Positions 35,866-63,582 of a stretch of DNA of 64,000 nt are shown piece after piece (within the stretch, counting starts at the first letter, position 1; each line of letters opens with the position of its first letter). The notes below the pieces were generated by a model. That model did not search any database. It had not been told where the DNA came from and worked only from the letters and a program-made list of their open reading frames with translations. This DNA comes from Bacteroidia bacterium (GTDB lineage Bacteria; Bacteroidota; Bacteroidia; B-17B0; Aurantibacillaceae), in NCBI GenBank assembly GCA_016787445.1, contig JAEUTQ010000021.1:1-64000 (forward strand). The letters run 5' to 3'. Position numbers and translations under genes: made by a program.

Positions 35866-37878
35866 TTAGCGAATCATAACGATGGTGCCCTTTTTTTCAA
35901 TGAATTCGCCCCGGGCATTTTTGTATTGAAGTATATAAACGTATGTATTGTCTTCCATTCCGGAACCATCCCATCCTTGATTTTCGTCGGTGGTTTCAAA
36001 TACTTTTGTTCCCCATCGATTTAAGACAGTAACCTTATAATCGGTTTTTTCTACGAATTGTGTAATCGGTTTCCAGATACGGTTTTCGCCTTTTGGTGCG
36101 AAAGCACCGGGTACAAATACGCCACCTTCCACATAAGCTTCCGCGATATTGGAAGCGCTTGAACCCGTGAGACCGTAAACGTTACCAAAATTTTCAACGG
36201 CAGTAACGATATAACCTACCTTGCCGCTGTTTTGAACGATGTCTTCTACATTATCGGTATATGTATTGATACCAACAGGAATAAAAGTAACCGGTGAAGA
36301 TTGTAGCTGTTCATCCACGACTCTGTAAATGTTATAACCGGCCACTCCACCCGACCAATTTGTATAATGATCCCAACTCAAATTATTATTAAAAATCTTT
36401 TCGCCATCGTTCTTTACTTTTAGTAAAATTGTTTTTCCGATGTTACTAACGTAGCGCACATTGCCGCAACTATCCAACAACTCCACTTTATAATAGTAAG
36501 GTTTTTCACTTGCCTTGATATCCATGTCTTTATAAGTGACAAATAAATTTCCGGTGTATGGAGCGAAGCCTATCAGATTAAAATTCACCGCGTCTTCAGA
36601 GCGCAGAATGTTATATCCCTTGCAGGATTTGGTAGTATCGCAATAGATACTCAATAAGGCAGCCTGATCTAAATCAACGCTCGCATAATGTAAATAAGCG
36701 AAAGCTGATGACGGTGGTGCCGTAGCTACCAAACATGTTCGGTTAGATGTAGAGGTAATTACGCCGGGTACATTCACCACTCGCACAATATAACAATACG
36801 TTTTTCCGGGTTCTAGTCCGCTATGCTTAAAGGTAGTTGAACTTGTATTGCCGATTAAATTGTACACACCACCATTTACTGAACAATAAATTTTATATTG
36901 TAAAACGCCTAAAGGTAAATTAGAATAGGCAATCCAAGTTAGATTTGCAGACCTTCCGCAAACATCATAGGTGTTTTTTAGATTGATACTGTTGTGACTG
37001 GTACCAAGCGGACTGATATTTCCACAACTATCGATAGCTGCAATGCAATGTGTAACACTGTTACTACTCGCGCTTAAAGTACTTGTGTAACTTGTGTTAT
37101 TTTTTCCTAATACGGTATCGATGTTCGACCAGGAAGAGCCGTTGAAATAATAAATCACATATCCGATACAATCATTGGAAGAAGAAACATTCCAACCCAT
37201 TGTTGTAAATCCGGCCGAGTTGACACTCACTGAATCCAGAATTCCATTTTGCGGAGGAATTAAATCCTTAAAATTTTGTCCGGCTACATTAGACGTAGAA
37301 ATACATCCGCTTGCATCGGCCAATTGAATTTGATAATTGTAAAACACATTACACACACTGATTGTATCGCGATAATTTAAAGCGCCTGTGTTTTTTATAT
37401 TCACCCATGAAGGCGTTGGATTCTCACGATAAATATTAAACACATTGGCTGAGCTTATAAGTTTTGGCGTGTGAATATTGTTATACATTAACGAAGCTGT
37501 TCCGTCATTTGGATTGGTAAGATTTAAATAAATAGAACGAAGCGTATCCGAAGCAATAGACGTATTAGTGCCTGCTGCGCCCCAACGCGTTTTAATGTAA
37601 TAATATTTGCTTTGCGTGTTTCCTCCTGCGCCTACATCAGTAAATGAAGTAATGGTACGTGTGCTAACTGTTCCAATGTTGATGTATGGTCCGGTTAAAA
37701 CATTTGCTTTAAAAATTTCGTAACTAAAAAATTGTGATGAAGGGTCGGTTGGACTAATCCACGTAAGCGTTAAATCACCGCTTGCGTTACAAGCAATGCA
37801 ACGCAATGATGGCGGAGCCACCTGCGCTTTGATTAAAACAAAGGCAAAAAAGAATATGAGCAGAAATCTGTTTTTCAA
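35866..37878 (-). CDS. Secreted fibronectin-III-like protein with type B sorting domain (TTG start)
   Basis: A 670-residue exported protein. TTG at 37876-37878 starts the signal peptide MKNRFLLIFFFAFVLIKAQ; an upstream ATG is blocked by an in-frame TAA. Several fibronectin-III-like modules are visible, for example around LTWISPTDPSSQFFSYEIFK, MGWNVSSSNDCIGYVIYY, LTWIAYSNLPLGVLQYKIYC and LSWDHYTNWSGGVAGYNIY. The C-terminus (FVPGAFAPKGENRIWKPITQ ... NRWGTKVFETTDENQGWDGS ... KKGTIVMIR) is the gliding-motility-associated type B sorting domain. It is predicted to be secreted by the type IX system. Its role is unknown. Confidence 0.83.
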   Translation of the reverse strand: MKNRFLLIFFFAFVLIKAQVAPPSLRCIACNASGDLTLTWISPTDPSSQFFSYEIFKANVLTGPYINIGTVSTRTITSFTDVGAGGNTQSKYYYIKTRWGAAGTNTSIASDTLRSIYLNLTNPNDGTASLMYNNIHTPKLISSANVFNIYRENPTPSWVNIKNTGALNYRDTISVCNVFYNYQIQLADASGCISTSNVAGQNFKDLIPPQNGILDSVSVNSAGFTTMGWNVSSSNDCIGYVIYYFNGSSWSNIDTVLGKNNTSYTSTLSASSNSVTHCIAAIDSCGNISPLGTSHNSINLKNTYDVCGRSANLTWIAYSNLPLGVLQYKIYCSVNGGVYNLIGNTSSTTFKHSGLEPGKTYCYIVRVVNVPGVITSTSNRTCLVATAPPSSAFAYLHYASVDLDQAALLSIYCDTTKSCKGYNILRSEDAVNFNLIGFAPYTGNLFVTYKDMDIKASEKPYYYKVELLDSCGNVRYVSNIGKTILLKVKNDGEKIFNNNLSWDHYTNWSGGVAGYNIYRVVDEQLQSSPVTFIPVGINTYTDNVEDIVQNSGKVGYIVTAVENFGNVYGLTGSSASNIAEAYVEGGVFVPGAFAPKGENRIWKPITQFVEKTDYKVTVLNRWGTKVFETTDENQGWDGSGMEDNTYVYILQYKNARGEFIEKKGTIVMIR

Positions 37879-37913: not shown

Positions 37914-37990
37914 GCGTTTATTTTGCGGGTGCGTAAATAAAATTAGCCAGGTGGCCAAGTAATTACTACAAGTGGCGTTTTATTGAGCAA

Positions 37991-38016
37991 AAAAGGCGGA
38001 CCAAAGCCCGCCTTTT
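37991..38016 (-). terminator. Intrinsic terminator after the tandem cargo gene
   Basis: AAAAGGCGG (37991-37999) and CCGCCTTTT (38008-38016) form a 9-bp stem with an 8-base loop; on the minus strand a T-run follows. It lies 20 bases after the stop of the 38037-39065 gene. Confidence 0.85.
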
Positions 38017-38036
38017 AACAATTTATTCTATTAAAA

Positions 38037-39065
38037 TTATTGAACGTTAATCTTTTGAACTGCTGATTTTTCACCAACGATTAAACGAACGAAATACATA
38101 CCGCTGCTTAATCCGTTTAAGCTGATAGATTGCTTATTGAAACCGTTAGAAGAATTTACTTTTTCTGATTTCACTAATTGTCCGTTAGTATTAATTACTT
38201 CATAAGAAACTGCTTCGTTAGAAGGATTGTTGTAAGAAACATTTACAACATCAGAAGCAGGATTAGGGAACACTTCAAATCCTAATGCAATTTGATCTTG
38301 TTGTTCTTTCACACCTAACACTAAATAATTAGAGTTAATAGTTGCAAATGTTTGAATTGAATTCCCTAATGGAGATGCTAAAGTTGAAGACGCAATAGAG
38401 AACATTGGCGCTTTAGAACCTGAAGGAGAATAGTAATCAGTTGTTATCATGTTTAAAGTACCTGCAACGATAATTGTGAAACTGATGGTTTGTACCGATA
38501 CAACTTTAATCACATTTGGGAAAGTCATTGATGGTAAATTAAGTGTTCCTGTACCGGTTGCTGTAACAGTTGCATTACCGGTAAAAGTACCGTTATTGCT
38601 GAACGCAGAAATAGAACCTGCGATGGAAGAAGTTGTTGCATTAGAAATAGCCATTGGATAACGCGCTGCTGCTAATGGAGAAGAATAATTTAAAACAACC
38701 GCATTGGTTCCAACCATTACATCACCACCATAATATTTATAATCGGTTGTGTTTGATGAATAAAAACTATTCTGATTAGCACCTGCACTTACAGCAACAC
38801 TTGCTGAAGGATATGCTGCTGCGCTTCCTGTAGAAGCAACAGTTACCGCGTTATAGTTTTTTAAAGTTGAGTTATGAATAGCGATGGTAGAGAAATTCCA
38901 TGTTTGTCCTGTACCGTTACCACCCGGAGTAACACCGGTTGAGTCACATTGTTTAGTTGCATAAGAGTTACCAACCACCATCGCGTGATTAGCCTGATTT
39001 AATGTTTGTGCATAAGCACCTGCGCTTAATAAAGCTGCTGAAATAAGTAAGTAGATTTTTTTCAT
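38037..39065 (-). CDS. Secreted type IX cargo protein, tandem paralog B
   Basis: A 342-residue exported protein: signal peptide MKKIYLLISAALLSAGAYAQ, then NHAMVVGNSYATKQCDSTGV. The body is rich in Ser/Thr/Ala and beta structure. The C-terminus is a type A sorting domain (FEVFPNPASDVVNVSYNN ... LSSGMYFVRLIVGEKSAVQKINVQ). It is clearly paralogous to the upstream gene at 39110-40168: NHAxVVGxSY, DSTG, the YYSxSxSKxPxFSxAxST segment and the sorting domain align. Strong secretion features, no recognised catalytic motif. Confidence 0.8.
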   Translation of the reverse strand: MKKIYLLISAALLSAGAYAQTLNQANHAMVVGNSYATKQCDSTGVTPGGNGTGQTWNFSTIAIHNSTLKNYNAVTVASTGSAAAYPSASVAVSAGANQNSFYSSNTTDYKYYGGDVMVGTNAVVLNYSSPLAAARYPMAISNATTSSIAGSISAFSNNGTFTGNATVTATGTGTLNLPSMTFPNVIKVVSVQTISFTIIVAGTLNMITTDYYSPSGSKAPMFSIASSTLASPLGNSIQTFATINSNYLVLGVKEQQDQIALGFEVFPNPASDVVNVSYNNPSNEAVSYEVINTNGQLVKSEKVNSSNGFNKQSISLNGLSSGMYFVRLIVGEKSAVQKINVQ

Positions 39066-39082
39066 TGTTTGGTTTTTAAATA

Positions 39083-39104
39083 CAATAATGCAATTACATT
39101 ATTG
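39083..39104. repeat. Perfect hairpin between the tandem paralogs
   Basis: CAATAATG (39083-39090) and CATTATTG (39097-39104) form a perfect 8-bp stem with a 6-base loop, five bases past the stop of the upstream paralog and 18 bases before the start of the downstream one. There is no GC-rich stem or T-tract, so it may shape mRNA processing and not termination. Confidence 0.55.
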
Positions 39105-39109
39105 ATGGG

Positions 39110-40168
39110 TTAATTATTAATGGTTAATTTTTTTACAGATGATTTGGTTCCAACCGTGGTTTTCACGAAATAAATTCCGGAATGTAAACCTTCAGTTTCG
39201 ATGTAGTACTCCGACTTACCTTTCTGCGAAATTAATTTTTCGCTCTTAATGGTTTGTCCGAGTGCGTTAATGATTTCATACGAAGCAGGTAAATTGTTTT
39301 CGTTGATGAAACTAATTTTAAAATCGGATTGCGCCGGATTTGGAAATACTTTGAAAGCGGAAACTTCCTTAGATACTTCTTCAACACTAATTGCTAAATA
39401 ATCCGCATTCACATAAGCGAAAAACTGAATTGAAGGCGGACCGAAAGAAGAAGTAATTGTAGATGCCGCTACTGAAAAAATAGGATGCTTAGAATTTGAT
39501 AAAGAATAGTAATCGTAATTTTCGAACGTCACAGAACCTGTAACACCCGCTACATAATCAAAATAAGTGCGTGTTTTTAAACGAACTACATTACCAAAAC
39601 TACGACCCGGTAAATTTAAAACCCCAACACCGTCATAGGTTACAACAGCGCTTCCGTTAGATATTGATCCCATAACAAAAGAAGCAATGGTTCCCGTAAA
39701 CGCAGGAGTAGTTGCAGAACCACCATACACCATTGGATACACAGCGTGCGTTACCCCGGTTGACAATAAGAAATCGGCCGCCACGGTAGCAATCGTAATT
39801 TTTCCACCCCAAAATTCCAATCCTGAAGAAGAAGTAGTGTAAAACGATTTATCACTGGTATTTACTTTAGCAATGGATGCAGCCGGATACGTTAAAGCCG
39901 TTGAAGTATTAGCCGCTGTTCCCGGTGAATACGTATTTACCGCATTATACCAACCTGCAGTTACTGTACGCGTAATTGGCGTTGTGAAAGTCCAAACTGA
40001 TGTACTTCCTGTAATCGTTGCTAAAGCTGCTGCACCGGTTGAATCTACTTGCGTTCTGGTATAAGAATCCCCAACAACAGGAGCATGATTTGCAAAGGTT
40101 AAAAGCGGGTTTTGCGCCGAACCCATTGCAACTAATAATGTAAATAAAGAAAAGTAAAGTTTTTTCAT
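39110..40168 (-). CDS. Secreted type IX cargo protein, tandem paralog A
   Basis: A 352-residue exported protein. The ATG at 40166-40168 gives a signal peptide (MKKLYFSLFTLLVAMGSAQ); an upstream in-frame ATG at 40216 would cover the predicted promoter. The mature N-terminus (LLTFANHAPVVGDSYTRTQVDSTG) and the YDYYSLSNSKHPIFSVAAST segment match the neighbour at 38037-39065, so the two are a tandem duplication. It ends with a type A sorting domain (FKVFPNPAQSDFKISF ... LHSGIYFVKTTVGTKSSVKKLTIN). No catalytic motif recognised. Confidence 0.8.
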   Translation of the reverse strand: MKKLYFSLFTLLVAMGSAQNPLLTFANHAPVVGDSYTRTQVDSTGAAALATITGSTSVWTFTTPITRTVTAGWYNAVNTYSPGTAANTSTALTYPAASIAKVNTSDKSFYTTSSSGLEFWGGKITIATVAADFLLSTGVTHAVYPMVYGGSATTPAFTGTIASFVMGSISNGSAVVTYDGVGVLNLPGRSFGNVVRLKTRTYFDYVAGVTGSVTFENYDYYSLSNSKHPIFSVAASTITSSFGPPSIQFFAYVNADYLAISVEEVSKEVSAFKVFPNPAQSDFKISFINENNLPASYEIINALGQTIKSEKLISQKGKSEYYIETEGLHSGIYFVKTTVGTKSSVKKLTINN

Positions 40169-40194
40169 TCGTAAACAGTTAAATGATTGAATAC

Positions 40195-40202
40195 CAAATA
40201 TA
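40195..40202 (-). promoter_or_regulatory. Predicted -7 box of tandem cargo paralog A
   Basis: Minus strand TATATTTG matches TAnnTTTG, 26 bases before the ATG at 40168. It suggests that the tandem pair can be transcribed independently of the sigma/anti-sigma genes upstream. Confidence 0.5.
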
Positions 40203-40251
40203 GTAATATTTAGCATTTATCCTTTACGCTATACAATAAAATAAGGTTGGG

Positions 40252-40956
40252 TTAATCGAGCTTAATTTCCAGTTCCGGTTCAGCCTCAGTGGTTTCGGTT
40301 TCCACTTTCATTAAATCAGGGGCTTTAATTGTTTCGATTTGCTCGGCCGGCACCTTTTCTTTTTTCTTACGGCGAATACGTGGTACTGTAGTTTGAGCTG
40401 TTAAACTATCAGAAGTAGGTTTGATAATTGCATTAGTGGTGGCCGGCATTATTCGGGCAGAATTTATATTTGAACCGCCCGTTGCCATGGTAGCGACAGG
40501 AGTGGAAATGACCACTTGTGGATTTTGAATAACAGGTGCAGAAACAATACTATCTTTTTTTACCGCTATCGCCTTTGGTTCCGGCTTGGAAACAACTTCT
40601 TGTTTTGTTTCCATTTTTTCAGGAGCAATGGTTGCTTTGAAATTATTCGGATTCGGATCTAATTTTTTCTCTACCTGTTCTTGATCCGGTTTAAAATCGA
40701 TGAAACTTAAAAGTATTGCCGAAACACCAACCAATGCCAATATAAAAAAGATAGGCAAAACAATGTTTCGGTTGATGTTTAAATTGATTTCAGGAAGTTT
40801 GATGAATGACAGTGTTGAGTTTTTGTTACACACTTCCTTACAATAATTTTCTTCAAAATCGCGCCATGCCGCTTCTGAAAATTCGTTATGCCTCGCATTC
40901 AGCAAGGATGAACGAATATTCTTTTCGTCTAATTCGTAATTAAACAGACTGCTCAT
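40252..40956 (-). CDS. Single-pass membrane protein, probable anti-sigma-like partner
   Basis: A 234-residue protein. The cytoplasmic N-terminus (about 1-65) contains EAAWRDFEENYCKEV and could bind a sigma factor. One transmembrane helix lies at about 66-86 (VLPIFFILALVGVSAILLSF). The rest is a low-complexity Pro/Thr/Lys/Glu-rich periplasmic region with basic RIRRKKKEKVPAE near 200. The gene overlaps the sigma-factor gene by 17 bases, the usual arrangement of ECF sigma factors with their membrane anti-sigma factors. No zinc-binding HxxxCxxC motif is present, so the anti-sigma role is inferred from topology and context only. Confidence 0.6.
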   Translation of the reverse strand: MSSLFNYELDEKNIRSSLLNARHNEFSEAAWRDFEENYCKEVCNKNSTLSFIKLPEINLNINRNIVLPIFFILALVGVSAILLSFIDFKPDQEQVEKKLDPNPNNFKATIAPEKMETKQEVVSKPEPKAIAVKKDSIVSAPVIQNPQVVISTPVATMATGGSNINSARIMPATTNAIIKPTSDSLTAQTTVPRIRRKKKEKVPAEQIETIKAPDLMKVETETTEAEPELEIKLD

Positions 40957-41524
40957 TTTTTTGCGACTTAAAATTCTTATCTATATTTTTTTGAAGGTTG
41001 TAACGTGCCTTCTCTAAATTCGCTTTTACGGTTTGTTCGCTGGCTTCTAAAATATCGGCTGCCTTTCTCAAATCATATTCTTCCACCACGTGTAAATTAT
41101 AAATCAAACGTTGTGATGGAACCAATTGATGCAGCGATTCTATTAACACATCATACTCTACATTTTTAAAATCGGTGAGAACAGCATCCACAAACAAATC
41201 ATAATTTTTAGCAGGCGTATCCGTTACACGAACCGTGCTTGCTACATAATATTCGCTGCGGATATTTCGTATAAACTCAACGCAAAATTTAATAAACTCG
41301 TTACGCACCCAATCACTTAAAATTAAATTAGTGTTCGATTTAAAATTACTAATGTGAGAGAGCAAATGAGCCATTCCGTTTTGCAAAAGCTCATTACTCT
41401 GAGTTTTATTTTTTGCGTAACGAATCGAAATCCCCGATAAAACCGGATAATAGGTTTCATAGAACTGCTTCTTGGCAGAGACATCATTTTTAGAGATAGC
41501 CGATATGAGTTCAGAATCAGTCAC
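40940..41524 (-). CDS. ECF-type RNA polymerase sigma factor (GTG start)
   Basis: A 194-residue sigma-70 family protein. The region-2 part starts at ELISAISKNDVSAKKQFYETYYPVLSGISIRYAKN. Region 4 near the C-terminus has the helix-turn-helix EEYDLRKAADILEASEQTVKANLEKARYNLQKN. Region 2 is divergent from typical ECF factors, lacking an obvious DIVQDTF-type motif. The start is GTG at 41522-41524. It is followed by a membrane anti-sigma-like gene and then by two tandem cargo genes on the same strand. A 7-bp inverted repeat (41526-41550) lies just before the start. The signal and regulon are unknown. Confidence 0.8.
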   Translation of the reverse strand: MTDSELISAISKNDVSAKKQFYETYYPVLSGISIRYAKNKTQSNELLQNGMAHLLSHISNFKSNTNLILSDWVRNEFIKFCVEFIRNIRSEYYVASTVRVTDTPAKNYDLFVDAVLTDFKNVEYDVLIESLHQLVPSQRLIYNLHVVEEYDLRKAADILEASEQTVKANLEKARYNLQKNIDKNFKSQKNEQSV

Positions 41525-41525
41525 A

Positions 41526-41550
41526 GTACAAGGGATTTAGCTACTTGTAC
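41526..41550. promoter_or_regulatory. Inverted repeat before the sigma-factor gene
   Basis: GTACAAG (41526-41532) and CTTGTAC (41544-41550) are exact reverse complements with an 11-base spacer, one base upstream of the GTG start. It could be a repressor operator or a hairpin hiding the start codon. Confidence 0.5.
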
Positions 41551-41603
41551 GAGGGCTTATTAACAAAGGTTACGGAATTGTTAGAATAATTTTAGATTTT
41601 AGA

Positions 41604-56853: not shown

Positions 56854-58524
56854 TTATTTACCCATTCCAACCGGACTACCCACACGAGTCATCGCACAAC
56901 GGAAACCTAACCAAGCGGCAGTTTGACGTTGATCTAAATAACGACGGGTACCAGGATTTAAGAAGTATGCGCGGTCTCTCCAGCTACCACCTTTGTATAC
57001 GTGTGCTTTATCATTCACTAAGGAAGTTTTTGCATATTCATACATTAATTTATCTGCCATATCAGTATAAGCGTCTTCACCTAAATTATAGTAAATACTA
57101 GATTGAACGTCTCCATCTAAATAGTTGATATAATCAGCAGTTTTGTAGTTACGTCTTTCATCCAAATTATCGGCAGCAATAGCAGAAGAAACTTCACGCC
57201 ATTGAACACGGCCAGGGATATCTGATTTACCTTCAGCAGTAACGTTTTTATTACCGTTCATATCATCCGCATTAGGAGCAGCACCAGTCATACGTGTTAA
57301 CACGCTATCCACGGCTTCAACAACTTCACCACTCACACCGTGTGGAGTTGGAGTGCTTACCTTATGCTTGAATTTTTGGTAAACTGGCCCATCTACGTTA
57401 GTTAAGATGTCGCCACCTAAACCACCAACTAATGTTGTACTATCACGTTGTTGAGTTACGAATACGTTACCACGGAAAGGACGGAATTCATCGGCATCAC
57501 CAATTGTTTGAGCACGATAAACGTCCATTACCCATTCTGATACGTTACCAGCCATGTTATATAAACCGTAATCATTTGGCCAATATGAATAAACAGGAGC
57601 AGTTACGTCGGCGTTATCATTTAAGAAACCTGCTGTACCCATGTAGTCACCGGCACCACGAACGAAGTTCGCATTGATTTGACCCATGTATTCATCAACT
57701 GCATTACGCACACCATGACCATTCCAAGGGTAAATACGACGCTCAGTGATACGCTCACCAATTGTGTTACCAATTAAACCATAAGCAGCATATTCCCACT
57801 CAGCTTCTGTTGGGAGACGATACTTTGGTAAAAAGATACCATCTTCCATGCGTACATCACGCTCTGGGTTTTGTTCATCAAATGAAGGTAATTTTTGCTT
57901 TAATTGTCCTTGCCATTTACCAGCTAAATAAGCTTCAGTACTGAAATAATCCTGATCTGAAGGATTTGGAACGTGTTCCAATAAACCTTCACGGATTAAG
58001 ATAAACTCATTAACGCGGTCGGTACGCCAAGCACAAAATTCGTTTGCTTGTAACCAGTTTACACCTACTACCGGATAATCACGGTATGCCGGGTGGCGTA
58101 AATAATATTCAACGTAAGGTTCGTTGTAAGCTAATTTTTCACGCCATACTAAAGTATCAGGCAATGCTTTATAATAGATATCCGGAAAAGTTGGTCCGAA
58201 TACACGAGAAGTCCAATATAGATATTCTAAATAAGAGAAATTGCTAACCTCAGTTTCATCCATGTAGAAAGAAGAAACAGTTACGCGGCGCGGAACGTTA
58301 TTCCACTCATAAGTAACATCGTGTTCAACACGACCCATTGTAAAGGTACCACCCTCAATTAGTACAAGTCCGGGACCGGTTTCTTGTTCTTCATAAGGAA
58401 CTTTCTCAAAACCGCCATTGGTTGGGTCATTGTAGGCCCAGCCTGTAACCGGAGAGCGCTCTTCGGCACAAGAAACCAAAATCATAGCCAAAATGGCTGT
58501 TAAGGTTTTACGGTTCTTTATCAT
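56854..58524 (-). CDS. gldJ: Gliding/type IX secretion lipoprotein GldJ
   Basis: A 556-residue outer-membrane lipoprotein. MIKNRKTLTAILAMILVSC has a lipobox with Cys19, followed by the GldJ-typical TGWAYNDPTNGGFE. The remainder is a formylglycine-generating-enzyme (SUMF1)-like domain: LVLIEGGTFTMGR, YMDETEVSNFSYLEYL, RLPTEAEWEYAA, MAGNVSEWVMDVY and the terminal GGSWRDRAYFLNPGTRRYLD ... WLGFRCAMTRVGS. GldJ is needed for gliding and stabilises GldK in the type IX ring. The length and ending favour GldJ over GldK. An ATG four codons upstream (58536) is also possible. The murF/porU neighbourhood supports the call. Confidence 0.9.
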   Translation of the reverse strand: MIKNRKTLTAILAMILVSCAEERSPVTGWAYNDPTNGGFEKVPYEEQETGPGLVLIEGGTFTMGRVEHDVTYEWNNVPRRVTVSSFYMDETEVSNFSYLEYLYWTSRVFGPTFPDIYYKALPDTLVWREKLAYNEPYVEYYLRHPAYRDYPVVGVNWLQANEFCAWRTDRVNEFILIREGLLEHVPNPSDQDYFSTEAYLAGKWQGQLKQKLPSFDEQNPERDVRMEDGIFLPKYRLPTEAEWEYAAYGLIGNTIGERITERRIYPWNGHGVRNAVDEYMGQINANFVRGAGDYMGTAGFLNDNADVTAPVYSYWPNDYGLYNMAGNVSEWVMDVYRAQTIGDADEFRPFRGNVFVTQQRDSTTLVGGLGGDILTNVDGPVYQKFKHKVSTPTPHGVSGEVVEAVDSVLTRMTGAAPNADDMNGNKNVTAEGKSDIPGRVQWREVSSAIAADNLDERRNYKTADYINYLDGDVQSSIYYNLGEDAYTDMADKLMYEYAKTSLVNDKAHVYKGGSWRDRAYFLNPGTRRYLDQRQTAAWLGFRCAMTRVGSPVGMGK

Positions 58525-58595
58525 ATTTATTCTCATAGTTTTTGAGCTTAATGTAAGGCTATAACGAAAAAAAGTTAATAAGGTTACAAATATTG

Positions 58596-59543
58596 TTAGA
58601 AAGATGGACAGCTGATGGTTCTGTATTTCTTCTTTTTAGGTTTACACTCGAACTGTATTTGTAAGGATACTTCATGCGAACCGGCAGTGTTACCTGCTAA
58701 TTTTGAAACAGTTACGTCATAACTATATCCGAATTTGAAGGCTTTTGTTTGAACACCCACTAAGGCAATTACGGCATCTAAATTTCTATACCATAAACCG
58801 GCCACGAAAGCTCCTTTAACATAATAAAGACCTAAATTAAGTTGGGTAAATTTTTGCTGTGCTTGAAATAATACGTTTGGTGATAAGTAACTAGCTCCAC
58901 CTTTTTCCAATTCAATAATAGCGCCCCCGTGAACCGTGAATTTAGCCGGTAATTTAGAAACCCCTAATAACCCTTCATCAGGTTGAGTAATATGATGAGC
59001 TGCAAATCCGAAGAAATAACGCTTGCTATACCCTAAAATACCTGCAGAGAAATCGGCGTTACGTTTAGTTTGAGAAGGTACAATTTCGTTTGTATTCCAT
59101 ACGAAACCACGGCGAGGATCAATCATATCCCCGAAATTCAACTTTGTACGATCTAAGGTTTTTTGGAAGTAAGTTGCTTGTAATCCGAATTTTAGAGAGA
59201 ATTCGCGGTTAACAGCCAAATGGTAAGAATACATACCGCTAGCCGTTGTTGTCTTTAAAGTTCCTTTAGCTTGATCATCAGTTGTAACTAATAATCCAAA
59301 ACCACCACCAATCGCATCATAATGTTGATCGTAGGAGGCGCTGTAAGTAACATATGTACCAGATAAGTTGGGCCATTGATTACGATAGTTTAAGCAAATA
59401 CGCGGACAACGTGCCGTACCTGCGAATGCAGGATTAAGATACGTTGGATTAGCGTAAAACTGCGTAAACTGCGGATCCTGAGCCTTAGAATCGATAAAAA
59501 TTCCAAGGATTAAAAATAAAAATAATCCAAATCTCTTAGTCAT
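58596..59543 (-). CDS. PorP/SprF-family type IX secretion membrane protein
   Basis: A 315-residue outer-membrane protein. The ATG at 59541-59543 gives the signal peptide MTKRFGLFLFLILGIFIDSKAQ, and the mature N-terminus DPQFTQFYANPTYLNPAFAG is the hallmark of the PorP/SprF family. Alternating strands such as FGFAAHHITQPDE, PNVLFQAQQKFTQLNLGLYY and FKFGYSYDVTVS indicate a beta-barrel. Family members help PorV/GldK-type complexes or anchor type B cargo. An extension to 59660 would run through the promoter and overlap porU. It lies divergently from porU and 71 bases upstream of gldJ. Confidence 0.88.
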   Translation of the reverse strand: MTKRFGLFLFLILGIFIDSKAQDPQFTQFYANPTYLNPAFAGTARCPRICLNYRNQWPNLSGTYVTYSASYDQHYDAIGGGFGLLVTTDDQAKGTLKTTTASGMYSYHLAVNREFSLKFGLQATYFQKTLDRTKLNFGDMIDPRRGFVWNTNEIVPSQTKRNADFSAGILGYSKRYFFGFAAHHITQPDEGLLGVSKLPAKFTVHGGAIIELEKGGASYLSPNVLFQAQQKFTQLNLGLYYVKGAFVAGLWYRNLDAVIALVGVQTKAFKFGYSYDVTVSKLAGNTAGSHEVSLQIQFECKPKKKKYRTISCPSF

Positions 59544-59573
59544 ACAAGAAGTTAAGTGCCACTTAGGGCTAGA

Positions 59574-59602
59574 CAAATTTAATAATCTATTTTTAAATAC
59601 AA
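59574..59602 (-). promoter_or_regulatory. Predicted promoter of the porP-like gene
   Basis: Minus strand: TTG (59600-59602), 18-base spacer, TAAATTTG (59574-59581), 30 bases before the ATG at 59543. A good consensus match, and decisive for the start choice. Confidence 0.65.
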
Positions 59603-59639
59603 AAAATTTATTTGAACAATATTTTGGCATATCAATCGT

Positions 59640-59647
59640 TATTTTTG
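59640..59647 (+). promoter_or_regulatory. Predicted -7 box of porU
   Basis: TATTTTTG matches TAnnTTTG and ends 11 bases before the porU ATG, giving a leader of only a few bases. Upstream TTGs are at 13 or 25 bases, outside the usual spacing. Confidence 0.5.
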
Positions 59648-59658
59648 CAAGACTCAAC

Positions 59659-62600
59659 ATGAAAAACGCTAATTTCTTATATACTATTACGTTAGTTTTG
59701 GCAATAGGGTTGCTTTATAGCCAAAAACAAGCTAACGGCTTGACTACCACGGTTCGTCCGGGAAATACTTTCAAAAGTAAGCTATCCGACAATACAAAAT
59801 TTCCCGTAAATCTTGAAAACGCACATTATGATGTGGCCAACAATAATTGTCCTTATTTCTCGGTAAATAAAAGTGTAAATTTAAATGAAGACTTAAATGC
59901 ATCTTTAACCGAAATTAAAACCGCTGTTGTTTCATCAGAAATTTCTCAAAAAATTCTAGCCGCATTTGGCAAAAACATTTCTTCTGATTTCAATACAAAA
60001 ATAATTACCGTTCAGGAAAAACAACAAAAGACAAGTACTTTAAAAATTACTCCTTATCGTATTAATAATGCAGGACAAGTTGAAGAACTTTTATCATACA
60101 AGGTTAATTGGACAATAATTGAATCTTCCAACACTCAAAAACTTCAGTCTTCATCATCTTTCACTAATAACTCTGTGCTTTCTACAGGAAATTGGTATAA
60201 AATAGGCGTCACAAAATCGGGGGTTTACAAAATTGACAGAAACTTTCTCCTTTCAATGGGAGTAGATGTGACGGCCGTTAATCCTAAAAACATTCGTATC
60301 TATGGAAACGGTGGTTATATGTTACCGGAATTAAATTCTGCTTACCGACATGATGATTTAAAAGAGAATGCCATTATTGTTACCGGAGAAAACGATAATT
60401 CATTAGATGTAAGTGATTATATTTTATTTTACGGTCAGGCTACAAATCAATGGTTACTTGATAAAACGCATTCAAATTCTTGTCTAGATTTCTTTAATAA
60501 ATTAAATTATTACTCTGATACCACTTATTATTACTTAACGACAGACCTTGGTCCCGGTAAAAGAATTAGCGACCGCCCCTCTGCAACAGAAACTGTATTA
60601 AACACATCTAACGACTACGATTATTACGACTACCATGAACTTAATTCTACCAACTTCATCAAATCGGGAACAGAATTTTACGGCGAGTATTATGATTTTA
60701 ATACTTCATACAGCTTCAATTTCCCTATACCAAATTTAGTAATTGGTGATACCGTTCGGACGTACGTGAAAATTGCCGCAAGAGGTTTAAGTAATTCAAC
60801 ATATAATGTTTCCTTTAGCGGCTCTGCTTTTTCATTTACTTCACCTGCCGTGAATGTAAATGATTATTTGGGTGATTATGCATCACGAAGTTCGATGTGC
60901 AATTATGCACTTTGTAATAGTCCTTCTTTGTTAAATTTTACAGTAAGTAAACAAACTCCGGGATCAGTTGGATGGCTTGATAAAATTATTTTTAATTGTC
61001 GACGTAATCTCGTTTTTAATAATTCACAATTTAGTTTCCGTGATTTAAGAACTGTTGGTGCCGGTAATGTGACTAAATACAGTATTAATACAAATGGAAA
61101 CCCCAATATTTCAGTTTGGGACGTCACAAACATTTTCGAAGTAAACAATCAGCAATATTCTTTGAGTGGTTCAACGCTTGAGTTTGTATTCAAAAACGAT
61201 TCGCTTCGCGAGTTTGTCATCCATAACGGAACCGATTATTTGACACCTAAGTTTGTAAAGAAAATCGGGAATCAAAATCTCCACGGTGTTGCGCAAGCAG
61301 ATTACGTAATTGTAACATATCCGGGCTATTTACCTTATGCTCAAAAGCTAGCGCAATTACATCAGCAATACGATACCTTAACCACTTCAGTTGTTACCGC
61401 TGATGAAGTTTACAATGAGTTTTCTTCAGGCAAACCAGATCCTACGGCCATTCGTGATTATGTTCGTATGCTTTACAACAAAAATTTATCCGTCGGAAAA
61501 CAAGTAAAATACTTACTCTTGTTTGGCGATGGTTCTTACAGAGTAAAAGACAGATATGCCTCAGGAAACAGTTCCATGTTGCCGGTTTATGAAACCGGAT
61601 ACCCGAAAGATAACTCATGGAATCCTACACTTTCAACCGCATGCGATGACTTCTTTGGATGGATGGATGATGCTGAGGGTGATGAATGGGGAATGGCCAT
61701 GGTTGATGTAGGCGTTGGACGCTTTCCTGTTAAAACAAACAACGAAGCTTACGCCGCCATTGATAAAGTAGAAGCTTATTATAAAAAGAATTTTAATTAC
61801 TCTGTTACAGCCGATGAGAATCTTTGTAATACCACTTCTTGCTTTCCTCAGGGAGATTGGAGAAACTGGGTTTCATTTATTGCTGATGACGAAGATTATC
61901 AAACACACTTGACCGATGCAGATGCATTAGCGAATAAGGTTAAAGTAAATCATCCTGAATACAACATCGATAAAATATATTCGGATGCTTACTTACAATA
62001 TTCTAGTCCGGGAGGTCAGCGTTATTATGATGTTAGTACCGGAATTGATCAGCGTATTGCGAAGGGATGTTTGGTTCTAAATTATACCGGACATGGCGGG
62101 GAGGTTGGATTAGGTCACGAGCGTTACCTTGAAATTGGACAAATACAATCTTACACCAATAAGTGCAACATGCCTTTGTTTATTACGGCCACTTGCGAAT
62201 TCAGCCGATTTGATGATCCTGACCGTACATCTGCTGGAGAACTTTGCTTCTTGAATCCTAACGGTGCGGCCATTGCTCTTTTAACAACAGTTCGTCTTGC
62301 CTTCTCCAATACAAACTTCACACTAAACTCTGTGTTATACGACTATATTTTTGATACTCTTCCTGGAGGTAAAATGCCGGCACTTGGAGATGTGGTGCGT
62401 TTAACAAAAAGAAATGCCGGATTTAGTTTTTATTATCTCAACTTTCATTTACTTGGAGATCCTGCATTGCGATTGGCGTATCCGCAACAAAAAGTTTATA
62501 CAACTCATATAAATAATAACCCTGTAACTGTTACCAGCAGCGACACATTAAAAGCTTTAGCCAAGGTTACTATAAGAGGATATGTTGGGAACGCTGGTGG

Positions 62601-63582
62601 TGCAAAGCTAACATCATTTAATGGTGTACTAAATCCGACAGTATTTGACAAAGAACAAGAAATTACTTGTTTAGGAAACGATCCCGGCTCCGTTACTTCT
62701 TTAGGGCCGTTTAAATTTAAACAACAAAAAAACATCATTTATAAAGGTAAAGTACAAGTTAAAAATGGTGATTTTGAGTTTTCCTTCATTGTACCAAAAG
62801 ACATTTCATACAATTTTGATTTAGGAAAATTAAGTTACTATGCACACAATGGCGTTCAAGATGCACATGGATATAATAATAAATTTTATGTTGGTGGTTC
62901 AGCTTCAAATGTAATTCCGGATAATGCAGGACCAACGGTAAACCTTTATATGAACGATAAAAAATTTGTGACAGGAGGAACTACAAATGAACGACCAAAT
63001 ATTTATGCTGAGGTTACCGACTCAAGCGGAATTAATACCGTTGGAACCGGTATCGGACATGACATTACTGCCATTTTAGATGAAAACTCTAGCAAGCCAA
63101 TTATTCTTAATGATTATTATGAGGCGGATTTAAATTCTTATCAAAGCGGAAAAATTAAATATCCATTTTCGGAATTATCAGAAGGTTCTCACCGCTTGAG
63201 TTTAAAAGTGTGGGATGTGCAGAATAACTCCTCAACAGCTTACACTGATTTTGTGGTAGCTAAATCAGCCGAAATGGCTTTAACCCATGTTTTAAATTAT
63301 CCTAATCCATTTACAACAAAAACTCAATTCTTTTTCGAGAACAATCAGTGCTGTCAATCTGTTAAAGTAAATATTCAAATCTTTACAATAAGCGGCAAAA
63401 TGGTTAAAACAATAAGTGAAAATGTTTATAACGAAGGGTTTAGGTCGCCAGGAATTGAATGGGATGGGAAAGATGAATATGGCGATAAACTGGCTAAAGG
63501 AGTTTATATTTATAAGTTAAGTGTTTTAGGCTCAGAGAATAAAAAAGCCGAAAAAACTGAAAAATTAGTAATTTTAAATTAG
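59659..63582 (+). CDS. porU: Type IX secretion sortase PorU
   Basis: A 1307-residue outer-membrane protease of the gingipain (C25) family that removes type A sorting domains and attaches cargo to A-LPS. The signal region is at 1-25; an N-terminal prodomain-like part runs to about 550. The catalytic domain has TGHGG with His812 and TATCEFSRFDDP with Cys846, and the DGSYRVKDRYASGN and VGRFPVKTNNEA segments are typical. An Ig-like region follows, and the C-terminus is itself a sorting-like domain (LNYPNPFTTKTQFFFENN ... GVYIYKLSVLGSENKKAEKTEKLVIL). The ATG at 59659 follows a -7 box. porV follows 35 bases downstream, the usual pairing. Confidence 0.95.
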   Translation: MKNANFLYTITLVLAIGLLYSQKQANGLTTTVRPGNTFKSKLSDNTKFPVNLENAHYDVANNNCPYFSVNKSVNLNEDLNASLTEIKTAVVSSEISQKILAAFGKNISSDFNTKIITVQEKQQKTSTLKITPYRINNAGQVEELLSYKVNWTIIESSNTQKLQSSSSFTNNSVLSTGNWYKIGVTKSGVYKIDRNFLLSMGVDVTAVNPKNIRIYGNGGYMLPELNSAYRHDDLKENAIIVTGENDNSLDVSDYILFYGQATNQWLLDKTHSNSCLDFFNKLNYYSDTTYYYLTTDLGPGKRISDRPSATETVLNTSNDYDYYDYHELNSTNFIKSGTEFYGEYYDFNTSYSFNFPIPNLVIGDTVRTYVKIAARGLSNSTYNVSFSGSAFSFTSPAVNVNDYLGDYASRSSMCNYALCNSPSLLNFTVSKQTPGSVGWLDKIIFNCRRNLVFNNSQFSFRDLRTVGAGNVTKYSINTNGNPNISVWDVTNIFEVNNQQYSLSGSTLEFVFKNDSLREFVIHNGTDYLTPKFVKKIGNQNLHGVAQADYVIVTYPGYLPYAQKLAQLHQQYDTLTTSVVTADEVYNEFSSGKPDPTAIRDYVRMLYNKNLSVGKQVKYLLLFGDGSYRVKDRYASGNSSMLPVYETGYPKDNSWNPTLSTACDDFFGWMDDAEGDEWGMAMVDVGVGRFPVKTNNEAYAAIDKVEAYYKKNFNYSVTADENLCNTTSCFPQGDWRNWVSFIADDEDYQTHLTDADALANKVKVNHPEYNIDKIYSDAYLQYSSPGGQRYYDVSTGIDQRIAKGCLVLNYTGHGGEVGLGHERYLEIGQIQSYTNKCNMPLFITATCEFSRFDDPDRTSAGELCFLNPNGAAIALLTTVRLAFSNTNFTLNSVLYDYIFDTLPGGKMPALGDVVRLTKRNAGFSFYYLNFHLLGDPALRLAYPQQKVYTTHINNNPVTVTSSDTLKALAKVTIRGYVGNAGGAKLTSFNGVLNPTVFDKEQEITCLGNDPGSVTSLGPFKFKQQKNIIYKGKVQVKNGDFEFSFIVPKDISYNFDLGKLSYYAHNGVQDAHGYNNKFYVGGSASNVIPDNAGPTVNLYMNDKKFVTGGTTNERPNIYAEVTDSSGINTVGTGIGHDITAILDENSSKPIILNDYYEADLNSYQSGKIKYPFSELSEGSHRLSLKVWDVQNNSSTAYTDFVVAKSAEMALTHVLNYPNPFTTKTQFFFENNQCCQSVKVNIQIFTISGKMVKTISENVYNEGFRSPGIEWDGKDEYGDKLAKGVYIYKLSVLGSENKKAEKTEKLVILN

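Follow-up and report, generated by a model that had tools for sequence, protein, structure and literature searches.

Three described systems come closest to the locus analysed here. In the Dma/ECF21 systems of Bacteroides thetaiotaomicron (Dma1/Das1 and Dma2/Das2), described as restricted to Bacteroidota, the gene of an extracytoplasmic function (ECF) sigma factor stands beside that of its anti-sigma factor, the latter being built of an N-terminal sigma-binding part, one membrane helix, a long disordered tether and a C-terminal outer-membrane β-barrel (PMC13088901). In the PorXY-SigP pathway, as described for Porphyromonas gingivalis, the ECF sigma factor SigP is activated by the response regulator PorX and acts on type IX secretion genes, with PorA, a cargo-type protein, feeding in (PMC7712824; PMC4800418). 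The SM6 promoter group of Flavobacterium psychrophilum comprises ECF-type promoters with a CGT −10 box, common to an ECF sigma/anti-sigma pair and the type IX genes gldN and porU; the acting sigma among seven ECF sigmas is left open in that paper (PMC9723704). Here we consider a four-gene locus of a Bacteroidia bacterium (assembly GCA_016787445.1, contig JAEUTQ010000021.1), in which an ECF sigma factor gene (sigma1), the gene of a membrane-bound anti-sigma-like partner (anti1) and two genes for type IX cargo (cargo 1 and cargo 2) follow one another within a 64-kb stretch of DNA, the window of this study. To our knowledge, how cells sense working type IX secretion is an open question outside P. 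gingivalis.

The study consists throughout of computation on sequences and models. We hold with moderate confidence that the cargo pair is controlled by a second ECF sigma factor of the same genome (sigma2), together with the housekeeping sigma, and not by the neighbouring sigma1; that the sigma1 pair is autoregulated; and that both circuits monitor type IX secretion on its outer-membrane side.

The locus

The window is part of contig C54 in a genome of 3.77 Mb and 83 contigs, rated 100% complete. An earlier note, made from the window's sequence alone, had placed a divergent ECF sigma factor, an overlapping single-pass membrane protein and two tandem paralogous cargo genes here, all read in the same direction. 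All four genes are on the minus strand, and their positions and the overlap proved correct:

40940..41524, minus strand: sigma1, ECF sigma factor, GTG start, 194 residues; TIGR02937 at 53.2 bits; clear orthologs in 71 other family genomes
40252..40956, minus strand: anti1, membrane anti-sigma-like partner by alignment and model, 234 residues; adjoins the sigma at 72 of 72 loci
40940..40956, minus strand: overlap of the sigma1 and anti1 genes, 17 bases; same length in 39 of 71 measured loci
39110..40168, minus strand: cargo 1, 352 residues; type A type IX sorting domain (PF18962, 53.4 bits)
38037..39065, minus strand: cargo 2, paralog of cargo 1, 342 residues; type A type IX sorting domain (PF18962, 59.7 bits)

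Comparisons within the family draw on 87 genomes, 83 of which have a sigma1 match; 71 clear orthologs were taken besides the window, giving 72 loci in total. Those relatives that carry names are metagenome-assembled Bacteroidota, mostly labelled Bacteroidetes, Bacteroidia or Sphingobacteriaceae bacterium.

Each of the two cargo proteins has a C-terminal Por_Secre_tail (cut-off 27 bits) and the features of type A cargo of type IX secretion, the signal peptides being judged by eye; at 39% identity end to end they are indeed the tandem paralogs that had been proposed. The longest frame of cargo 1 begins at 40216, and its start is probably the ATG at 40168, leaving a gap of 83 nt to anti1. The cargo model, whose mean predicted local distance difference test score (pLDDT) is 61.5, gave no usable match in a fold search (best E 0.099). 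Because type A type IX tails number at least 150 in the genome (150 scored of 219 candidates), which also has many ECF genes, a cargo gene beside an ECF gene is unsurprising by itself.

Promoters of the two sigma factors and of the cargo pair

ECF promoters follow a general AAC/CGT form. Both their CGT box and the Bacteroidota housekeeping −7 box, TAnnTTTG, appear in the description of the F. psychrophilum promoters (PMC9723704). The following candidate sites were found in the window:

41548..41571, minus strand: sigma1-type promoter GTAACCTT-N14-CGTA, autoregulation predicted; AAC-N16/17-CGT in 51 of 72 family loci
40226..40251, minus strand: ECF-type promoter of the cargo pair, CCCAACC-N16-CGT, of sigma2 type; in 6 of 8 genus genomes
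40195..40202, minus strand: TATATTTG, match to the housekeeping −7 box TAnnTTTG; in 7 of 7 genus upstream regions of cargo 1
58559..58588, minus strand: sigma1-type promoter match, a weak lead, 23 nt before gldJ; 16.9 bits

The sigma1 promoter lies about 24 nt before the start of its gene. A spacer of 17 occurs in 24 of the 72 sigma upstream regions, against 2.2 of 72 in shuffled regions, and 50 of the 51 sites have a G two letters before AAC, i.e. G(T/A/C)AAC...CGT (the two letters are GT in 20, GA in 20, GC in 10 and TA in one). An ECF-type promoter does precede the cargo pair, in line with the ECF circuit that the earlier note had suggested; its letters before cargo 1, however, are CCCAACC and not the GNAAC of sigma1, with CC before AAC in 6/6 sites. 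The six aligned genus members share 11 unbroken identical bases plus the CGT, and these stand out in the intergenic alignment.

The same CCCAACC forms the promoter of sigma2, which is encoded on another contig (C43, locus L181) and is the sole other sigma of this genome to match the subfamily profile at E 1e-22. Its operon runs sigma, barrel-like anti-sigma (anti2), PKD protein and PKD cargo with a type A tail. Among 12 other ECF loci of the genome scanned for AAC-N15-18-CGT, sigma2 alone has CCAAC upstream; at the sigma2 loci of the family the site was found in 17 of 21 readable upstream regions, with CC before AAC in all 17. Matrices built without any genus site prefer sigma2 over sigma1 at 6/6 cargo sites. 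Because the cargo promoter letters CCAAC match sigma2 and not GNAAC, the cargo pair is predicted to answer to sigma2 rather than sigma1.

Across the 8 genus genomes CCCAACC-N16-CGT has 57 sites, against 26 for the reversed pattern. Besides sigma2 itself, it precedes a type A-tailed PKD protein in the own genome (59 nt before the gene, C61), another such gene near one sigma2 copy in genome G055, and a small protein in the own genome as well as a similar one in G057; G052 has a site with the same letters as that of the small protein in the own genome. Chance probably accounts for several of the sites, which fall within genes.

The two sigma factors also separate by descent. In a tree of 71 sigma sequences the family sigma1 proteins form one clade (98) and the sigma2 proteins another (100), the latter lying inside a set of 35 rows with labels for CHU_C and PorP-fused partners (98). 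The tree gives Shimodaira-Hasegawa-like approximate likelihood ratio test (SH-aLRT) support only, with a midpoint root, and every second CHU_C row, locus L205 and most family rows were omitted from it; the partner labels are our reading of partner length and C-terminus.

Outside the genus, a sigma2-type site precedes 2 of 45 orthologs of the cargo genes, or 3 if the spacer of G019, longer by one base, is allowed, and a sigma1-type site at 8 bits or more precedes 1 of 46 (these include one genus member, G054). As few of the orthologs outside the genus have either site, the control of the cargo genes would be recent, or have been lost elsewhere. Two sites of the form GAAAC...CGT, before the orthologs of G024 and G028 outside the genus, were not counted, their spacer being 18 and their position far upstream.

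Several observations, including the scarcity of sigma2-type sites just given, weigh against our assignment. It rests on two −35 letters, and related sigmas can share promoters; among the sigma promoters of loci across the class, the letters before AAC are GC in 29/40 and CC in 3/40, so that CC is not exclusive to sigma2. In G055 and G057 cargo 1 has no such site upstream. Four of the 21 readable sigma2 upstream regions have no site and 9 of the 30 loci were unread, while sigma1 sites were found at just 51 of 72 loci. A terminator scan listed none in the 83-nt gap between anti1 and cargo 1, making read-through from the sigma1 operon possible. The barrel of anti2 (539 residues) rests on a sub-threshold porin match at its C-terminus (18.5 bits against 21), and anti1, with neither sorting domain nor barrel, is tied to type IX secretion by kinship.

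The cargo neighbourhood and the local alternatives

Of the seven other genus loci, the six that extend far enough (L031-L034, L036, L037) all keep the order sigma-anti-cargo-cargo; L035 is cut off by a contig end, and its genome has the cargo pair at the start of another contig. Outside the genus the cargo pair stands behind the partner at 0/64 loci; in 59 of these the sequence runs on for 1.5 kb or more beyond the partner gene. The cargo domain without the tail was found in 79 of the 87 family genomes, with 6 copies in the own genome; at one locus outside the genus (L100) another protein with a similar C-terminus lies behind the partner, lacking the cargo domain, of which the search found none in that genome. 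Judged by this distribution, the cargo neighbourhood is young and of genus level, and the sigma pair is old. The co-occurrence of the four genes, which the earlier note had offered as a check, thus holds within the genus and breaks down beyond it; and the idea that pair and cargo form one local unit falls with what the note itself had named as refuting it, relatives that have the sigma/anti pair without the cargo pair.

Two further observations concern the flank of the cargo pair. Just downstream lies a gene for an fn3 protein with a type B sorting domain (35866-37878), kept in the 6 genus loci with enough flank. Behind cargo 2 a G+C-rich hairpin followed by T (37989-38020, minus strand) was seen by eye and was not listed by the terminator scan.

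The better-surviving alternative is the local circuit of the earlier note, in which sigma1 released by anti1 would transcribe the cargo pair, through the promoter at 40226-40251 or by read-through of a four-gene operon. The shared strand, the short gap with its lack of a listed terminator and the order kept in the genus are what such a circuit would show. So is the spacing: the sigma1 and cargo promoters share the same AACCTT-N14-CGTA, and AACYTT-N14-CGTA has exactly these two matches in the window, where shuffles expect 0.43. Genome-wide that pattern shows no excess (26 sites against 31 reversed), one of its sites lying before sigma2. The identical spacing first favoured sigma1 as the driver of the cargo promoter, but the ortholog matrix test (1/46) and the comparison with sigma2 then tipped the balance the other way: the cargo site lacks the G of 50/51 sigma1 promoters and has the CC of 17/17 sigma2 promoters. 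With the sigma pair moreover standing without the cargo pair at 64/64 loci beyond the genus (a few are truncated), we judge the local circuit unlikely. Least likely of all, and in our view improbable, is that the cargo genes are ordinary housekeeping-promoter genes with accidental neighbours and an unused ECF-like site: the TAnnTTTG box in 7/7 genus upstream regions, the great number of cargo genes in the genome and the 0.45 sigma2 matrix hits of this strength expected per shuffled window fit it, whereas CCCAACCTT and CGT are kept, with spacer and flanks changed, in 6/6 aligned genus members (two near-identical), and genus-wide sites are about twice those of the reversed pattern.

The sigma1 and anti1 pair

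Sigma1 exceeds the TIGR02937 cut-off of 42.9 bits and consists of regions 2 and 4 only, as expected of an ECF sigma factor. Its region 4 (PF08281) scores 30.7 bits, above the cut-off of 25.7, and its region 2 (PF04542) 19.9, below the cut-off of 24; it ranks 15th of the 16 frames of the genome above the TIGR02937 cut-off, in keeping with the divergent character ascribed to it.

The profile of anti1 matches 72 of the 87 family genomes at E 0.001, at 72/72 loci no more than 150 nt from the end of the sigma gene. The two genes overlap by 17 bases in 39 of the 71 measured loci, by 1-23 bases in 29 and by 44 in one, and are separated by gaps of 1 and 21 bases in two; the overlaps were measured from longest-frame starts, and the 44-base case reflects an early start codon in the frame call. 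In several genera a LEA_2 gene lies upstream of the pair. The notion of a conserved ECF/anti-sigma-like pair is therefore well founded, and by the evidence of these comparisons it is a vertically inherited, old pair.

In its structural model (m7d2c1db62667) anti1 has helices at residues 11-22 and 28-45, a short one at 48-51 and a membrane helix at 63-85, predicted with high confidence, which agrees with a single-pass protein; the remainder is without structure, the pLDDT being 48-68 per 10-residue block beyond residue 90. An alignment of partners (A2, 40 rows, mean column identity 22%) shows a conserved N-terminus, F.YELDE..IR..L......W..F, after which come the helix, a stretch that varies, a run of basic residues and the conserved tail EPEL. 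The C-terminal tail of anti1 is thus conserved and acidic, and comes after a basic stretch and a long disordered part. Searches with anti1 gave a best E of 0.087 in Pfam, no match up to E 1 in NCBIfam and, with its profile, none among solved structures; its N-terminus matched no known Pfam anti-sigma domain. FecR matched neither anti1 nor its 40 relatives, and the neighbours are LEA_2 and cargo genes, so that the pair does not qualify as FecR-type signalling.

SH3_3, a bacterial SH3 domain, was matched in 6 of 40 partner relatives, which fits a periplasmic location. By eye, an SH3-like insert is seen in the periplasmic part of the partners at family loci L045, L050, L057, L062, L066, L074 and L089.

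Taken together, sigma1 and anti1 probably constitute an envelope-signal pair that controls itself.

A sigma subfamily probably linked to type IX secretion

Beyond the family, the anti1 profile matches 12 genomes in a set of 395 drawn from the class, with a sigma of the same subfamily directly upstream in 12/12. With the sigma profile, matches of E 1e-22 or better were obtained in 265 of 295 class genomes; the following counts are confined to 67 loci from outside the family, chosen among the best-scoring of these matches. A partner gene is present at 67/67, and together with the own genome's second pair (L181) this yields 68 partner proteins. At E 0.01 they match CHU_C (the type B sorting domain) in 35 cases, PKD_4 in 33 and PorP_SprF in 7; NCBIfam recognizes 34 type B tails and 7 members of the PorP family. 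Behind 15 of the 19 short-tailed partners (L194-L212) lies a porP gene on the same strand, whose product is a close relative of the window PorP (42-64% identity over the aligned part).

Partners of the CHU_C type (loci L215-L263) are single-pass proteins ending in the type B domain, often with PKD domains. Those at L230, L231, L233, L238, L248, L253 and L258, of 578-675 residues, begin with repeats of the N-terminal motif; by their number and C-termini they fit the 7 PorP_SprF matches, an assignment of our own.

Type B tails are described as binding PorP-like barrels in P. gingivalis and Flavobacterium johnsoniae (PMC9143113), and so the tips of the CHU_C, the PorP_SprF and the short-tailed, porP-accompanied partners all indicate one location in the envelope. 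Of 36 genes immediately following the partner (out of 55 listed, those with a long flank), 12 also contain CHU_C; of 50 genes preceding the sigma (out of 59 listed), 6 do. This control is rough, as many genes in both sets are cut by the ends of the stretches. In the class relatives examined, the suggested tie between this sigma subfamily and type IX secretion is thus recovered in type B and PorP partners and in porP next door. A type IX link for the subfamily is likely, and from the fused and neighbouring domains of the relatives we infer that it senses type IX secretion.

The window itself encodes GldJ (56854-58536; 456.8 bits against a cut-off of 458.2), a PorP/SprF protein (58596-59660) and PorU (59659-63582), porU being divergent. 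The sigma1-type match before gldJ is the second-best sigma1 matrix hit in the window; 0.23 such hits are expected per shuffled window, and 12 of the 60 shuffles contain one or more. The spacer of the match is 16, as against 17 in 8/8 genus sigma1 promoters. Together with the promoter sharing in SM6 (PMC9723704), this match fits type IX sensing by the subfamily but does not prove it.

Mechanistic interpretation

In the mechanism that we propose, the cytosolic N-terminus of anti1 would hold sigma1, and its periplasmic tail, devoid of a folded domain, would report an envelope signal. Sigma1, once freed, would transcribe its own operon. The cargo genes appear to carry start signals of their own, a housekeeping-type −7 box and a sigma2-type ECF promoter, and cargo output would follow sigma2 plus the housekeeping sigma. 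Given the tips of the anti-sigmas in class relatives (type B domain, PorP/SprF barrel, or short tail with porP), both circuits probably monitor type IX secretion on its outer-membrane side.

More tentatively, and as a possibility that we regard as doubtful, a single ECF sigma subfamily might read the type IX apparatus directly across Bacteroidia by means of envelope-spanning anti-sigmas. These would comprise a cytosolic end that holds the sigma, a single helix in the inner membrane, a tether and, at the tip, one of three structures: a type B domain that docks on PorP, a PorP/SprF barrel, or a short tail working together with a neighbouring porP. Filling or loss of PorP would free the sigma, which would adjust the machinery (possibly gldJ) and the cargo; one genome might run two such circuits with different promoter letters, with cargo genes lying behind the wrong one. 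If true, anti-sigmas ending in a type IX sorting domain or a PorP anchor would connect the secretion pore directly with transcription. The case also illustrates how a cargo gene may be credited to the wrong regulator if adjacency alone is considered, and how two sister sigmas can be distinguished by their −35 letters.

Comparison with known systems

Among the titles and starts of abstracts listed in a literature search, some of whose queries matched far more papers than were listed and which had most subscription papers beyond its reach, there was no description of anti-sigmas with type B domains or PorP barrels. The nearest layout is that of Dma/ECF21 (PMC13088901). Like a Dma protein, anti1 has an adjoining ECF sigma gene and a membrane helix followed by a disordered tether. 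It lacks the C-terminal outer-membrane β-barrel, having instead a disordered tail with basic and acidic parts; for this reason anti1 was not filed under Dma, whereas the partner in the second pair looks barrel-like. The likeness of the window pair to ECF21 lies in neighbourhood and partner layout alone. The main text of the Dma paper does not use the term 'type IX', whereas the class relatives described here are often tipped by a type B domain or a PorP/SprF barrel. SM6 resembles the present case in that ECF-type promoters extend from a sigma/anti-sigma pair to type IX genes, a likeness by description. With PorXY-SigP the locus shares an ECF sigma factor that may act in type IX secretion, and a PorX homolog is encoded on contig C48 of the same genome. 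In the account of SigP (PMC7712824), however, activation is by a response regulator and the gene downstream of SigP is not named among the possible anti-sigmas, while sigma1 and sigma2 each have an adjoining membrane partner.

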